Shown here: positions 1 through 5,104 of the stretch, in pieces
Layout of the letters: each line of letters starts with the position of its first letter
Numbering within the stretch: position 1 is the stretch's first letter
NCBI GenBank assembly: GCA_013001145.1
Contig: JABDND010000131.1
Span: 1-33,058, forward strand
Direction of reading: 5' to 3'
Source: Croceitalea sp.
GTDB taxonomy: Bacteria > Bacteroidota > Bacteroidia > Flavobacteriales > Flavobacteriaceae
Length of the DNA: 33,058 nucleotides
Translations under genes and position numbers: made by a program
The notes under the pieces: generated by a model
Told to the model about the DNA's origin: nothing
Database searches by the model: none
What the model saw: only the letters and a program-made list of their open reading frames with translations

Positions 1-892
1 TTCTGCCACCAAAATCAATGGCAACTTGCGCTAGACAGTCATCCATGGGCAAACAGAAACCATAACGTTCAATACCCAATTTATCGCTTAGGGCCGTTTG
101 AAAAACTTCGCCCAAAGCAATGGCCGTATCTTCAATAGTATGGTGTTCATCTACCTCTAGGTCTCCATTTACTTTAATAGATAGGTCCATTTGACCATGG
201 CGCGCTAGCTGATCCAACATATGATCAAAAAATGCAAGTCCCGTATGAATATCACTTTGGCCTTTTCCATCAAGATTCAATTCAATCTGAATATTCGTTT
301 CATTTGTTTTTCTATGGATGCCCGCCTTGCGTTGTTTTAATTTTAAAAATTCATAAATGCATTCCCAATCGTTGGACTGCAGGGTTATATGTACAGACAA
401 GTCATTCTCTGATATAGTGATTTCATCAGTTCCTAATTGCGTTTTATCATCAATAAATATTCCTTTTGCCCCTAAATTTTTAGCCAGCTCAATATCGGTT
501 AGTCGATCGCCAATAACAAAAGAGTTTTTTAAATCAAACTGATCGGTGAAATACCTCGTCAAAAGACCTGTGCCCGGTTTTCTGGTATTTGCCTTTTCTG
601 ACGGAAAAGTTTTATCTATCAATACCTCGCTAAATACAACGCCTTCGTTCTCAAAAGCAGCTAGTATAAAGTTATGTACTGGCCAAAAGGTATCTTCTGG
701 GAAGACATCCGTGCCCATACCGTCTTGATTGGTGATCATCACCAACTCGTAATCCAACTCTTTTGCAATTTTACCTAGATAAGTAAAAACCTTGGGGTAA
801 AATTCCAATTTATCGAAGGCGTCAATTTGCTCGTCTGCCGGTTCTTTAATCAACGTACCATCACGATCAATAAATAATACTTTTTTTGCCAT
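1..892 (-). CDS. hisB: Bifunctional histidinol-phosphatase / imidazoleglycerol-phosphate dehydratase (3' end outside window)
   Basis: Minus-strand translation from ATG at 892 gives MAKKVLFIDRDGTLIKEPADEQIDA (HAD phosphatase motif DxDGT); translation near position 1 gives LPMDDCLAQVAIDFGGR (IGPD). Start overlaps hisC stop as TGATG. Confidence 0.93.
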   Translation of the reverse strand, partial: MAKKVLFIDRDGTLIKEPADEQIDAFDKLEFYPKVFTYLGKIAKELDYELVMITNQDGMGTDVFPEDTFWPVHNFILAAFENEGVVFSEVLIDKTFPSEKANTRKPGTGLLTRYFTDQFDLKNSFVIGDRLTDIELAKNLGAKGIFIDDKTQLGTDEITISENDLSVHITLQSNDWECIYEFLKLKQRKAGIHRKTNETNIQIELNLDGKGQSDIHTGLAFFDHMLDQLARHGQMDLSIKVNGDLEVDEHHTIEDTAIALGEVFQTALSDKLGIERYGFCLPMDDCLAQVAIDFGGR

Positions 893-1980
893 CAGATTAA
901 ATTCTTTAATGCGTCGATGAGTTTCTCATTTTCTTCCTGTTTGCCTACTGTTAGGCGTAATGTGTTATCACATAGCGGTTGGCTGCTTCTATTGCGCACC
1001 ACAATCCCTTGCTGTAGCAATTGTACATAGCGTAAATTGGCATCGTCAACCTTAACCAAAATAAAGTTGGCATCACTTTTATAAATGTGTTTTATACATG
1101 AAACTTGGGCTAGCTCATTTACCAAATAAGTGCGGTGTGCCAGTATTTCATTTATTTCGTTTTGGACCATGGTCATTTTTGACAATTTATCCAAAGCTTG
1201 TTTTTGCGTGAGTTCATTTACGTTATAGGGTGGCTTAATTTTTTTGAGGACATCAACAATTGTCTTTGAGGCATAACAGATGCCCAATCTTATAGCTGCC
1301 AGACCATAAGCTTTTGATAGGGTTTGGGTAACAATCAAGTTGGGAAATTCCGATAAACGCACAACCCATGATTCACTGGCGGCAAAATCAATGTACGCTT
1401 CATCAATGACCACGATTCCATTAAATTCATTGAGCAAGATTTCAATACGCCCCATTTCTAAACTATTACCTGTTGGGTTATTGGGAGAGCAAATAAAAAT
1501 CAATTTGGTTTGCTCATTGACAACCTGAAGTACTTGGTCGACATCAATTTCAAAATTGGGCAGCAGTAGCACGTCTTTATTGGCAATGGCGTTTGTTGCT
1601 GCCAATACCCCGTACATACCATAAGTGGGCGGCATGGTGATGACATTATCTACATTTGGTTCACAAAATGCCCTAAAAATGAGGTCCAAGACTTCATCAC
1701 TTCCATTGCCCAGCAATATTTGATCTACAGATATTTCTTTATTAATGGACAGGACCTTTTTCACCGCTCGCTGATGTGGGTCTGGATATCGATTAAGGCC
1801 ATTATCGAAGGGGTTTTCGTTGGCATCAATATAAACCATATCACCCTCTTGGGATATAAATTCATCCCTAGCTGAGGAATAAGGCTTCATGTTTTTCACA
1901 TTATCCCTAATGAGCTTATCAATATCAAACGGTGCTTTTTTTAACTGTTGTCCCATGATTTGATTATGAATTCTCTTCAA
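892..1980 (-). CDS. hisC: Histidinol-phosphate aminotransferase
   Basis: ORF 362 aa with PLP aminotransferase motifs (CSPNNPTGN, VIDEAYIDF, TLSKAYGLAAIRLG); position in his operon. Confidence 0.96.
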   Translation of the reverse strand: MKRIHNQIMGQQLKKAPFDIDKLIRDNVKNMKPYSSARDEFISQEGDMVYIDANENPFDNGLNRYPDPHQRAVKKVLSINKEISVDQILLGNGSDEVLDLIFRAFCEPNVDNVITMPPTYGMYGVLAATNAIANKDVLLLPNFEIDVDQVLQVVNEQTKLIFICSPNNPTGNSLEMGRIEILLNEFNGIVVIDEAYIDFAASESWVVRLSEFPNLIVTQTLSKAYGLAAIRLGICYASKTIVDVLKKIKPPYNVNELTQKQALDKLSKMTMVQNEINEILAHRTYLVNELAQVSCIKHIYKSDANFILVKVDDANLRYVQLLQQGIVVRNRSSQPLCDNTLRLTVGKQEENEKLIDALKNLI

Positions 1981-3256
1981 TTTCCTTTAATCGCAAACTT
2001 ACAGCATTCTTATGGGCCTGAAGCCCTTCGGCCTCTGCCATGATTTCAATTGTGCGGCCCAATTTAAGCAGTCCTTGCTTATTTAGTTTTTGAAAGGTCA
2101 TTTGCTTTAAAAAACTATCTAAGTTTACCCCACTATATTGTTTGGCATAACCATTGGTCGGTAGGGTATGATTGGTGCCAGATGCATAATCACCAGCACT
2201 TTCCGGGGTGTAATTTCCTATAAATACCGAGCCTGCATTGATTGTATTTTCTACGTAAAAATCTTCGTTGTCAACACAGACAATATAATGTTCGGGGCCG
2301 TATTCATTGATTATTTCCAAGGCCAATGCATCATTCTCAACATAAATCAAACGGCTGTTGGCTATTGCTTTTTCTGCAATATCCCGTCTGGGCAAAGAAG
2401 CTATTTGGGCATAGATTTCAGTTTCTACCTTATCTATCAATGCTTTTGAGGTGCTCACCAAAATAACCTGGCTATCGGCCCCATGTTCGGCTTGACTCAG
2501 CAAATCGGATGCAACAAAGGCCGGATTGGCGGTATCATCGGCAACGACCAACAGTTCACTTGGGCCCGCAGGCATATCTATGGCGATGCCATATTTGGTC
2601 GCCATTTGCTTGGCAACAGTCACAAACTGATTTCCAGGACCAAATATTTTATACACTTTGGGCACAGAGGCCGTGCCAAATGTCATTGCGGCTATGGCCT
2701 GGATACCCCCTACTTTAAGCACTTTTGTCACTCCACATAATTTAGCGGTATACAGTATGGCATTGTTGAGTTGCCCTTTCTTATTGGGAGGACTGCAAAG
2801 TACAATTTCTTTGCACCCCGCAATTTTTGCAGGTATGCCTAACATCAATATGGTCGAAAACAAAGGTGCCGTACCACCAGGAATGTACAGCCCCACTTTT
2901 TCTATGGGTCTTTTTTCTTGCCAACAGCTTACCCCAGGCATGGTCTCTACCATGACCTTATCTGTTTTTTGTGCCAGGTGAAAGACTTCAATATTGGATT
3001 TGGCCTGTTGAATTGCATCTTTCAACTGGGGCGACAATTCATTTTCGGCAGTTTCAAATTCTTGCGGCTTTACCAATATGTCATCAAGATCAACCCCATC
3101 AAATTTTTTGGTAAAGGTTGCCACAGCGGAATCGCCTTCATTCTTAACCTTGTTAAAAACGGAGCTTACGGTTCCCTCGATGGCTTCAAACGATTGGGTT
3201 GGGCGCGACATTAATGATGACCAGGATGATTTTGGTGGATTAAATATTTTCTGCAT
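1964..3256 (-). CDS. hisD: Histidinol dehydrogenase
   Basis: ORF 430 aa with HisD motifs (GLYIPGGTAPLFSTILMLGIPAKIAGC, GPGNQFVTVAKQ, DMPAGPSELLV, LLSQAEHGADSQ, GDYASGTNHTLPT). Confidence 0.97.
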   Translation of the reverse strand: MQKIFNPPKSSWSSLMSRPTQSFEAIEGTVSSVFNKVKNEGDSAVATFTKKFDGVDLDDILVKPQEFETAENELSPQLKDAIQQAKSNIEVFHLAQKTDKVMVETMPGVSCWQEKRPIEKVGLYIPGGTAPLFSTILMLGIPAKIAGCKEIVLCSPPNKKGQLNNAILYTAKLCGVTKVLKVGGIQAIAAMTFGTASVPKVYKIFGPGNQFVTVAKQMATKYGIAIDMPAGPSELLVVADDTANPAFVASDLLSQAEHGADSQVILVSTSKALIDKVETEIYAQIASLPRRDIAEKAIANSRLIYVENDALALEIINEYGPEHYIVCVDNEDFYVENTINAGSVFIGNYTPESAGDYASGTNHTLPTNGYAKQYSGVNLDSFLKQMTFQKLNKQGLLKLGRTIEIMAEAEGLQAHKNAVSLRLKEIEENS

Positions 3257-4113
3257 TACATAACCATTTTTTCTATTGGACAGACCAAAATTCCCTCAGC
3301 ACCAGCCAACTTCAATTCATCAATAACCTCCCAGAACTTATCTTTATTGATGACCGTATGAACAGAGCTCCAGCCTTCTTCTGCCAAGGGTAAAACTGTA
3401 GGACTGCGCATGCCTGGTAAAACAGCTATGATTTCTTTCAATTTGTCATTAGGGGCGTTCATCAATACATATTTGTTTTGCCTTGCCTGTAAAACAGATT
3501 TAATTCGAAATTGAAGTTTGGCAAGTATTTTTATACGCTCTGCTGTAATTTTTGGCGAGACGGCCAATACAGCTTCGCTTTTCAAAAGCACTTCAACCTC
3601 TTTTAAATTATTCTTGAACAAAGTGCTTCCGCTGGAAACAATATCGCAAATAGCATCTGCAAGACCTATGTTAGGAGCAATCTCTACCGATCCATTAATA
3701 ATGTGCAAATCGGCATTAATACCTTTTTTCTTTAAATATTTATTTACCGTATTCGGATAAGACGTCGCGATACGCTTGCCTTCAAAGTCTTTAAAGGAAT
3801 TATATTTAAAAGCCTTGGGTACGGCCATGGATACTTTGCATTTTGAAAAATTAAGTTTTTCGGTGATTGTGATACCCTCTCCTTTCTCAAATAATACATT
3901 CTCACCTATTATGGCCACATCGACGACGCCGTCCAACAAATATTGGGGAATATCGCCATTGCGCAGATAAAACAATTCCAATGGAAAGTTTCGTGAATTG
4001 GCCTTTAATTGATCTTTACCATTATCGATGGCAATACCGCATTCATTTAATATTTGCAAAGAGTCTTGGTTCAATCGGCCACTTTTTTGTACGGCAATTC
4101 TAATTTTAGTCAT
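3256..4113 (-). CDS. hisG: ATP phosphoribosyltransferase (start re-assigned from 4152 to 4113)
   Basis: HisG motifs (MTKIRIAVQKSGRLNQDSLQIL, GVVDVAIIGENVL, DAICDIVSSGSTL). The track start at 4152 lies inside the intrinsic terminator, so the internal ATG at 4113 is preferred. Confidence 0.94.
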   Translation of the reverse strand: MTKIRIAVQKSGRLNQDSLQILNECGIAIDNGKDQLKANSRNFPLELFYLRNGDIPQYLLDGVVDVAIIGENVLFEKGEGITITEKLNFSKCKVSMAVPKAFKYNSFKDFEGKRIATSYPNTVNKYLKKKGINADLHIINGSVEIAPNIGLADAICDIVSSGSTLFKNNLKEVEVLLKSEAVLAVSPKITAERIKILAKLQFRIKSVLQARQNKYVLMNAPNDKLKEIIAVLPGMRSPTVLPLAEEGWSSVHTVINKDKFWEVIDELKLAGAEGILVCPIEKMVM

Positions 4114-4129
4114 AGCACTTTGTTCAATT

Positions 4130-4158
4130 AAAAAACCCGTTTGATTGCTCAAACGGGT
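4130..4158 (-). terminator. Intrinsic terminator in hisG leader (attenuator)
   Basis: Minus strand ACCCGTTTGA-GCAA-TCAAACGGGT: perfect 10-bp stem with GCAA tetraloop, followed by a T run (TTTTTTAATT), located between the leader peptide and hisG. Confidence 0.9.
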
Positions 4159-4232
4159 CTAGAATTATTTTGAAATACACAAAATATCGTTACCTCGCCT
4201 GAGCGCAGTTATCGATATGATGATGTGTATTT
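4147..4232 (-). promoter_or_regulatory. Mutually exclusive RNA structures of the his attenuator
   Basis: Antiterminator: GCTCAGGCGAGGT (4192-4204) pairs with ACCCGTTTGAGC (4147-4158), 12 pairs with one bulged A. Upstream pairing AAATACACA (4224-4232) with TGTGTATTT (4173-4181), 9 bp, overlapping the first His codon. Confidence 0.8.
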
Positions 4233-4243
4233 AAAGTTCTCAT
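4190..4243 (-). CDS. his operon leader peptide MRTLNTHHHIDNCAQAR
   Basis: ATG AGA ACT TTA AAT ACA CAT CAT CAT ATC GAT AAC TGC GCT CAG GCG AGG TAA; three consecutive His codons just upstream of an intrinsic terminator and hisG. Confidence 0.88.
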   Translation of the reverse strand: MRTLNTHHHIDNCAQAR

Positions 4244-4257
4244 TAAGTCGTAAAATT

Positions 4258-4265
4258 AAAATATA
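4258..4265 (-). promoter_or_regulatory. Candidate -7 element for the his operon (TATATTTT)
   Basis: 7/8 match to TAnnTTTG about 15 bp upstream of the leader peptide ATG; -33 element not convincing. Confidence 0.35.
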
Positions 4266-4288
4266 ATTATTAGACAAAAAAGTAATTT

Positions 4289-5104
4289 TTAGTTATTTCC
4301 CAAAATAAGAGGCAGACCAGCATCACCCGAACCAACCACCACCACTTTAGCATTGGGTGATTTGGCAAGTTCCAAGGTGGCTTCTATACCTTTGTCTTGA
4401 AGTATTTTGTCGGTTAATGAAGCACTCAGAATTTTGTTGGCATCGGCCTTACCTTGTGCCTCAATAATTTGGCGCTGTGCTTCTTTATCGGCAGTGATAA
4501 GTCTAAACTCGTATTCCAACGACTCTTGTTCTTGTTTCAATTTACGTTCAATAGCTTCTTTGATGGTTGGAGGCAATGTAACATCCCTTACCAGCACTTC
4601 ATTGAGTTGAATGTATTGACCGTCAACGATTTTCTTGGTTTCCTCATAAATTTCTGCCTGGATGGCATCGCGCTTGCTTGAATATAATTGTTCGGGCGTA
4701 TATCTACCTACAACGCTTCGGGCGGCTGACCTTATGGTCGGCAATAATACCCTTTGTACATAGGCCTCCCCTTTTTCTTGGTGTAGTTTGCCCAAAGATT
4801 CATATTTGGGCTCAAACCATGCAGAGGCATCTAATTTGATTTCAAGGCCATTTGAAGATAGCACTTGCATTTTCTCGAACACCTCTTGTTGCCTTACTTC
4901 ATATACAAAGACTTTGTTCCAAGGTGCCACAATATGAAAACCTTCACCTAAAGGTGGCGCATCTGTAACCACTCCGCCCCCAAAGGTTTTGTATAAAACG
5001 CCAGCCTCACCGGAACCGATGGTAACTGCTGATTTTGAAATTAAAATAACCAATACGATAATAATGAAAATTGCGGGTAGCGCAATTTTGGGTAATCTGT
5101 CCAT
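4289..5104 (-). CDS. SPFH/Band 7 (prohibitin-like) membrane protein
   Basis: N-terminal TM segment, then GEAGVLYKTFGGGV, IKLDASAWFEPKYESL, RSAARSVVGRYTPEQLYSSKRDAIQAEI, EAQGKADANKIL typical of prohibitin-family proteins. Confidence 0.87.
   Translation of the reverse strand: MDRLPKIALPAIFIIIVLVILISKSAVTIGSGEAGVLYKTFGGGVVTDAPPLGEGFHIVAPWNKVFVYEVRQQEVFEKMQVLSSNGLEIKLDASAWFEPKYESLGKLHQEKGEAYVQRVLLPTIRSAARSVVGRYTPEQLYSSKRDAIQAEIYEETKKIVDGQYIQLNEVLVRDVTLPPTIKEAIERKLKQEQESLEYEFRLITADKEAQRQIIEAQGKADANKILSASLTDKILQDKGIEATLELAKSPNAKVVVVGSGDAGLPLILGNN

Follow-up and report, generated by a model that had tools for sequence, protein, structure and literature searches.

The window analyzed here is a 33,058-nucleotide stretch of DNA from Croceitalea sp. 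(contig JABDND010000131.1), and its minus strand carries a his operon in which a short leader ORF is followed by hisG, then by hisD and hisC. The features of this region are given below in window coordinates.

4275 to 4278, minus strand: tentative -33 element TTTG, identified by eye, 16 nt upstream of the -7 box
4251 to 4258, minus strand: putative -7 box for sigma-A, TAATTTTA (consensus TAnnTTTG), separated from the leader ATG by 7 nt
4190 to 4243, minus strand: his leader ORF, MRTLNTHHHIDNCAQAR and stop, with three CAT codons at 4225 to 4217
4224 to 4232, minus strand: segment A, AAATACACA, partner of B
4192 to 4204, minus strand: segment C, GCTCAGGCGAGGT, antiterminator 5' strand, in the 3' end of the leader
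4173 to 4181, minus strand: segment B, TGTGTATTT, partner of A in the pause hairpin or anti-antiterminator
4147 to 4158, minus strand: segment D, ACCCGTTTGAGC, 5' arm of the terminator and 3' strand of the antiterminator
4130 to 4159, minus strand: intrinsic terminator, stem GACCCGTTTGA/TCAAACGGGTT, loop GCAA, six T's
3256 to 4113, minus strand: hisG, ATP phosphoribosyltransferase (NCBIfam TIGR00070, E 7e-54)
1964 to 3256, minus strand: hisD, histidinol dehydrogenase (NCBIfam TIGR00069, E 2e-156)
892 to 1938, minus strand: hisC, histidinol-phosphate transaminase, putative start (NCBIfam TIGR01141, E 3e-103)

Going from 4243 to 4113 on the minus strand, the leader ORF is followed by a 30-nt linker, the GCAA hairpin with its six T's and hisG, and the intrinsic terminator thereby sits between the leader and the first structural gene. 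An earlier sequence-only reading had proposed a 17-codon ORF with CAT CAT CAT in front of hisG, and this ORF is present, with its ATG at 4243 and its stop codon TAA at 4192 to 4190. The start of hisG is ATG 4113, where the alignment of relatives begins. The mechanical ORF list offered TTG 4152 instead, and this candidate was rejected because it lies inside the terminator and relatives align from ATG 4113. A search of the genome for further copies of C and D showed that the complete leader/C/D module occurs in a single copy. Directly upstream of the leader lies an SPFH-type gene (4289 to 5104), whose matches to HflC/HflK are weak.

The hairpin had been described as a 10-bp stem with a GCAA loop and a T run, and it was found in this form (loop at 4148 to 4145, T run at 4135 to 4130, minus strand); the stem has at least 10 bp, and 11 to 12 bp in the predicted fold. 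The claimed pairing of the leader 3' end with the terminator 5' arm likewise holds, with C and D forming 12 pairs, two of them G-U, and one bulged A. The antiterminator C:D and the terminator D:E both use D and are therefore mutually exclusive. The 9-bp A:B pairing that had been noted as overlapping the first His codon is real, shares two bases with that codon and encloses C. The folding check suggested earlier was run on the region: the fold reached -37 kcal/mol, where shuffled sequences averaged -22.9 (z -4.2), and the predicted structure included both the terminator and the A:B helix. Rfam, searched at the gathering score and relaxed up to E 5, returned no credible family for the region; the enterobacterial-type his_leader model RF00514 did not match at either setting, and no T-box or riboswitch model in Rfam matched.

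Histidine attenuation with a His-run leader peptide is textbook knowledge for enterobacteria (hisL of Escherichia coli and Salmonella). The element in the window resembles hisL in placing such a peptide before the his operon, with ribosome stalling as the proposed read-out, and in having a pause/anti-antiterminator, an antiterminator and a terminator as alternative helices. It differs from hisL in having three consecutive His codons in a 17-residue peptide instead of seven, in carrying the antiterminator strand inside the leader ORF, in the lack of an Rfam match, and in a promoter from which a near-leaderless leader is predicted, in a lineage that lacks Shine-Dalgarno sites.

The position of C within the leader is central to the proposed switch. 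Counted from the initial base of the third CAT, the segment begins 15 nt further on, and its last base is the first of the stop codon. The edge of the ribosome footprint lies about 12 to 13 nt downstream of the A site, an established value that the geometry given here assumes, and from this and the position of C it follows that C is left free by a ribosome halted at the first, second or third His codon and is covered by one at the stop codon. When the RNA upstream of the stalled-ribosome edge was masked and the transcript was taken as far as D, the fold was the antiterminator, at -22.0 kcal/mol; with the ribosome placed at the stop codon, the terminator alone remained. Once E is transcribed, the full-length RNA folds as the terminator even with the upstream RNA masked. 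The terminator is thus the lower-energy state once E is present, and the antiterminator must win kinetically by forming first, as attenuators usually require.

These elements suggest the following sequence of events. RNA polymerase would transcribe the leader with a ribosome close behind. When charged tRNA-His is scarce, the ribosome would stall on one of the three CAT codons and cover A, leaving C free to pair with D immediately upon its synthesis, and polymerase would read through into hisGDC. With ample histidine, the ribosome would reach the stop codon and cover C, and the terminator D:E would form before hisG. In a transcript carrying no ribosome, A:B would close around C and termination would be favored. 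We infer translation of the leader and control of readthrough by histidine supply. The geometry of the textbook switch was borne out in all of its anatomical predictions, which supports the earlier reading, and on the basis of sequence and comparison we consider it highly probable that the element controls the his operon by ribosome-mediated transcription attenuation.

Upstream regions were read at 80 hisG loci of Flavobacteriaceae (Maribacter, Muricauda/Flagellimonas, Zobellia, Arenibacter, Cellulophaga and others), and a His-run leader precedes hisG in 79 of them. In the sole exception (L009), the first His codon has become the Tyr codon TAT, giving Tyr-His-His, and C and the terminator are intact. 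Among these close relatives almost no variation is seen in the leader end TCA(A/G)GCGAG or in the terminator CCCGTTTGAG..ATCAA(A/G)CGGG. In 81/81 sequences the first His base and C are 22, 25 or 19 nt apart, so that the frame is kept, whereas the linker between the stop codon and D differs in length by single bases. The His codons vary synonymously (CAT 241, CAC 23). This comparison, with its frame-preserving leader indels and synonymous His codon changes, is the sequence evidence that bears on translation of the leader. Unconserved His codons and pairing arms in relatives had been named as the result that would speak against an attenuator; this was looked for and the opposite was found, both being conserved.

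In Maribacter stanieri, Maribacter sp. 1_MG-2023 and Kriegella aquimaris (L039, L047 and L048), a CAG-to-TAG change makes the peptide three codons shorter. Segment C is retained in these three relatives despite the early stop, which indicates that the QAR end is conserved as RNA and not as peptide.

Genomes were also sampled across the order and class (Flavobacteriales/Bacteroidia, n = 99), and a short ORF counted as a leader when a stretch of 5 residues contained at least 3 His, with dinucleotide shuffles as the control. By this measure a His-rich leader stands before hisG in 91 of the 99 genomes, against 2.0 expected in shuffles, and with at least 4 His required it is found in 74, against 0.1 expected. 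Two of the genomes lacking a leader belong to family f15 and have a genome size of 0.6 Mb. On the evidence of these upstream regions, the leader is conserved across nearly all sampled Bacteroidia having hisG. In other Bacteroidota, outside the class, it was found in 20/38 genomes (1.2 expected), which cluster in families f75 and f82, whereas it was absent upstream of hisG in families f71, f72, f74 and f76; to judge from the sequences, this is a pattern of loss or gain within the phylum. Some leaders of f75 and f82 (L183 to L222, mostly outside Bacteroidia) carry long, spread-out His arrays, such as VHHAHHGHHHISVQ.

Between families the leader peptides are strongly divergent (for example MHHHHHFHVQAGR, MKPNFLTVHHYHHHLC, MKTTNTHHHSHHAHIV and MKRYVHHHAIRVSPGKPR), and the terminator sequences likewise differ widely. 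The variability of the peptide outside its His codons speaks against a different mode of control, in which expression would be set not by ribosome position but by a riboswitch or T-box, by a regulatory peptide or by masking of hisG translation. Conservation of the C end as RNA in the three relatives with shortened peptides would fit such a mode. It is nevertheless very improbable: conservation extends to the His codons, which vary synonymously, the Rfam searches gave no T-box or riboswitch, and neither the predicted terminator nor the predicted antiterminator includes the hisG start.

A further comparison concerned whether the pairing arms change together. Neither RNAalifold nor pair counting detected C:D covariation beyond shuffles in the 51 closest sequences, because C:D hardly varies there, and this near-invariance is the reason why wider sampling was used. 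The evidence for co-evolution accordingly stems from the wider set only, not from those 51 sequences. The pairing set comprised 82 genomes from 28 families, all with a detected terminator, and pairing energies of the leader 3' region were computed with the terminator 5' arm of the same genome or with arms from other families, using one genome per family. The mean C:D energy was -12.7 kcal/mol (sd 0.26) for own arms, compared with -9.5 (sd 0.54) for swapped arms, the lowest value in 300 swaps being -11.2. Own pairing is thus much better than swapped pairing across 28 families, which argues that the C and D arms co-evolve. Base composition is not the explanation, since the mean family z against shuffled leader regions was -2.3 and 27/28 families were below 0. 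When 300 nt upstream of the terminator arm were searched for its best partner, this partner fell between the His codons and 15 nt past the stop codon in 71/82 genomes, against 13.3 expected.

Matched changes can be seen within family f8, where TCCACGGTGAG occurs with CTCGCTGTGGA and CACCACGGC with GCTGTGGTG, and in family f6, where GCGGTAGGCT occurs with GGCTTACCGC and CTCAGGCGAGG with CCCGTCTGAG. Good C:D pairing is lacking in a few families (e.g., f24, f26, f51 and f28). The pause/anti-antiterminator helix A:B gains comparative support as well, with an own energy of -10.3 against -8.2 for swapped arms and 0/300 swaps as good; this support is weaker than that for C:D, with a mean per-family z of -1.2, and the helix is weak in the window itself (z -1.3). 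The comparison of upstream regions proposed in the sequence-only reading thus found both the His codons and the arms conserved, with the arms co-evolving across families.

Co-evolution of C with the terminator arm also speaks against a simpler account, in which the hairpin terminates the upstream SPFH-type gene and the His-rich ORF is incidental. That gene runs in the same direction, stops 45 nt short of the leader and lies near hisG in 80/80 close relatives. In the order and class set, however, it is near hisG in only 5/99 genomes, yet the leader is kept in 91/99, which argues that the attenuator follows hisG and not the upstream gene; a promoter-like box also stands between that gene and the leader. 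A simple terminator of the SPFH-type gene was rejected on the retention of the leader and the co-evolution of the arms, and it is still less probable than a different mode of control. That the element is genuine by descent and its regulation lost in this lineage is just as hard to credit: although the sequence comes from a fragmented draft assembly that is 88 percent complete, the window preserves the His codons, C, D and the terminator in full, and in close relatives these elements hardly vary.

For the attenuator itself, the promoter-like box makes a further prediction about the leader mRNA. Of the 80 close sequences scored, the window included, 75 have a sigma-A-like box TAnnTTT(G/A) whose end lies 7 to 8 nt upstream of the leader ATG, and the -33/-7 spacing, read by eye, is 16 to 19 nt in relatives. 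The box is placed at -12 to -5 relative to the transcription start in a Flavobacterium psychrophilum study (PMC9723704). From this position, transcription is predicted to start about 3 to 4 nt before the leader ATG, and the leader mRNA would be near-leaderless, with a 5'UTR of about 3 to 4 nt. The caveat of atypical ribosome binding in the sequence-only reading is made more specific by this predicted 5'UTR. In the wider class the box-to-ATG distance ranges from about 4 to over 30 nt, which suggests that the near-leaderless start is a trait of some lineages. Very short 5'UTRs or leaderless mRNAs make up 3.7 to 5.5 percent in two mapped Bacteroidetes, according to the figures given in PMC7366714 and PMC9723704, and the predicted start is unusual for the phylum. 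A precedent is the trpL attenuator of Sinorhizobium meliloti, whose leader ORF transcript starts at the ATG and is leaderless (PMC7298713); it senses Trp and is alphaproteobacterial, whereas the leader described here would sense His and its start site is predicted.

In the same genome, at L224:1333-1470, an ORF with three Trp codons, MKVETVNTWWWNTLRQIS, stands before trpE and is followed by the hairpin GGCTTGTC-ATCAC-GACAAGCC with a T run (region z -4.3); this upstream element is likely a Trp attenuator. The box of the trpE leader, TATATTTG, ends 5 nt before the ATG, and this leader would also be near-leaderless. Leader peptides were looked for before the ilvD and homoserine dehydrogenase genes and were not found there.

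Vitreschak et al. reportedly mentioned in 2004 candidate attenuators in some Bacteroidetes/Chlorobi. A computational attenuator survey by Lopatovskaya et al. (2010) appears as a citation in PMC4833913. The 2021 F. psychrophilum study described a structured 5' element at hisG that is conserved in other genera and has no Rfam match, and reported strong clues for leader-peptide attenuation at amino-acid operons of that species (PMC9723704). The F. psychrophilum element shares its gene, its bacterial family and its lack of an Rfam hit with the element in the window, and the two are very probably the same element; the main text of that study gives no leader sequence, pairing or mechanism for hisG (PMC9723704). 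Our literature search found no explicit description of a Bacteroidetes hisG leader peptide. The mechanism of his attenuation and, from the text of PMC9723704, a hisG 5' element in Flavobacteriaceae are already known. Added here are the phylum-wide extent, the co-evolving arms and the conserved sigma-A-like box predicting a near-leaderless mRNA.

The his attenuator would account for this conserved, unannotated hisG 5' element without an Rfam family. Ribosome-mediated attenuation needs tight coupling of transcription and translation, and to our knowledge the Bacteroidota are a phylum without Shine-Dalgarno sites. That almost all sampled hisG-bearing Bacteroidia have an attenuator in front of this gene therefore argues that coupling works without Shine-Dalgarno sites. 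We lean slightly toward the view that the leader of this clade is translated from a near-leaderless mRNA, with ribosomes loading at the 5' end behind polymerase without a Shine-Dalgarno site, and that the his attenuator shows kinetic coupling across Bacteroidia. The attenuator is a ready reporter for measuring transcription-translation coupling and, if the proposal is true, its near-universal occurrence would show that this coupling is kinetic across Bacteroidia.
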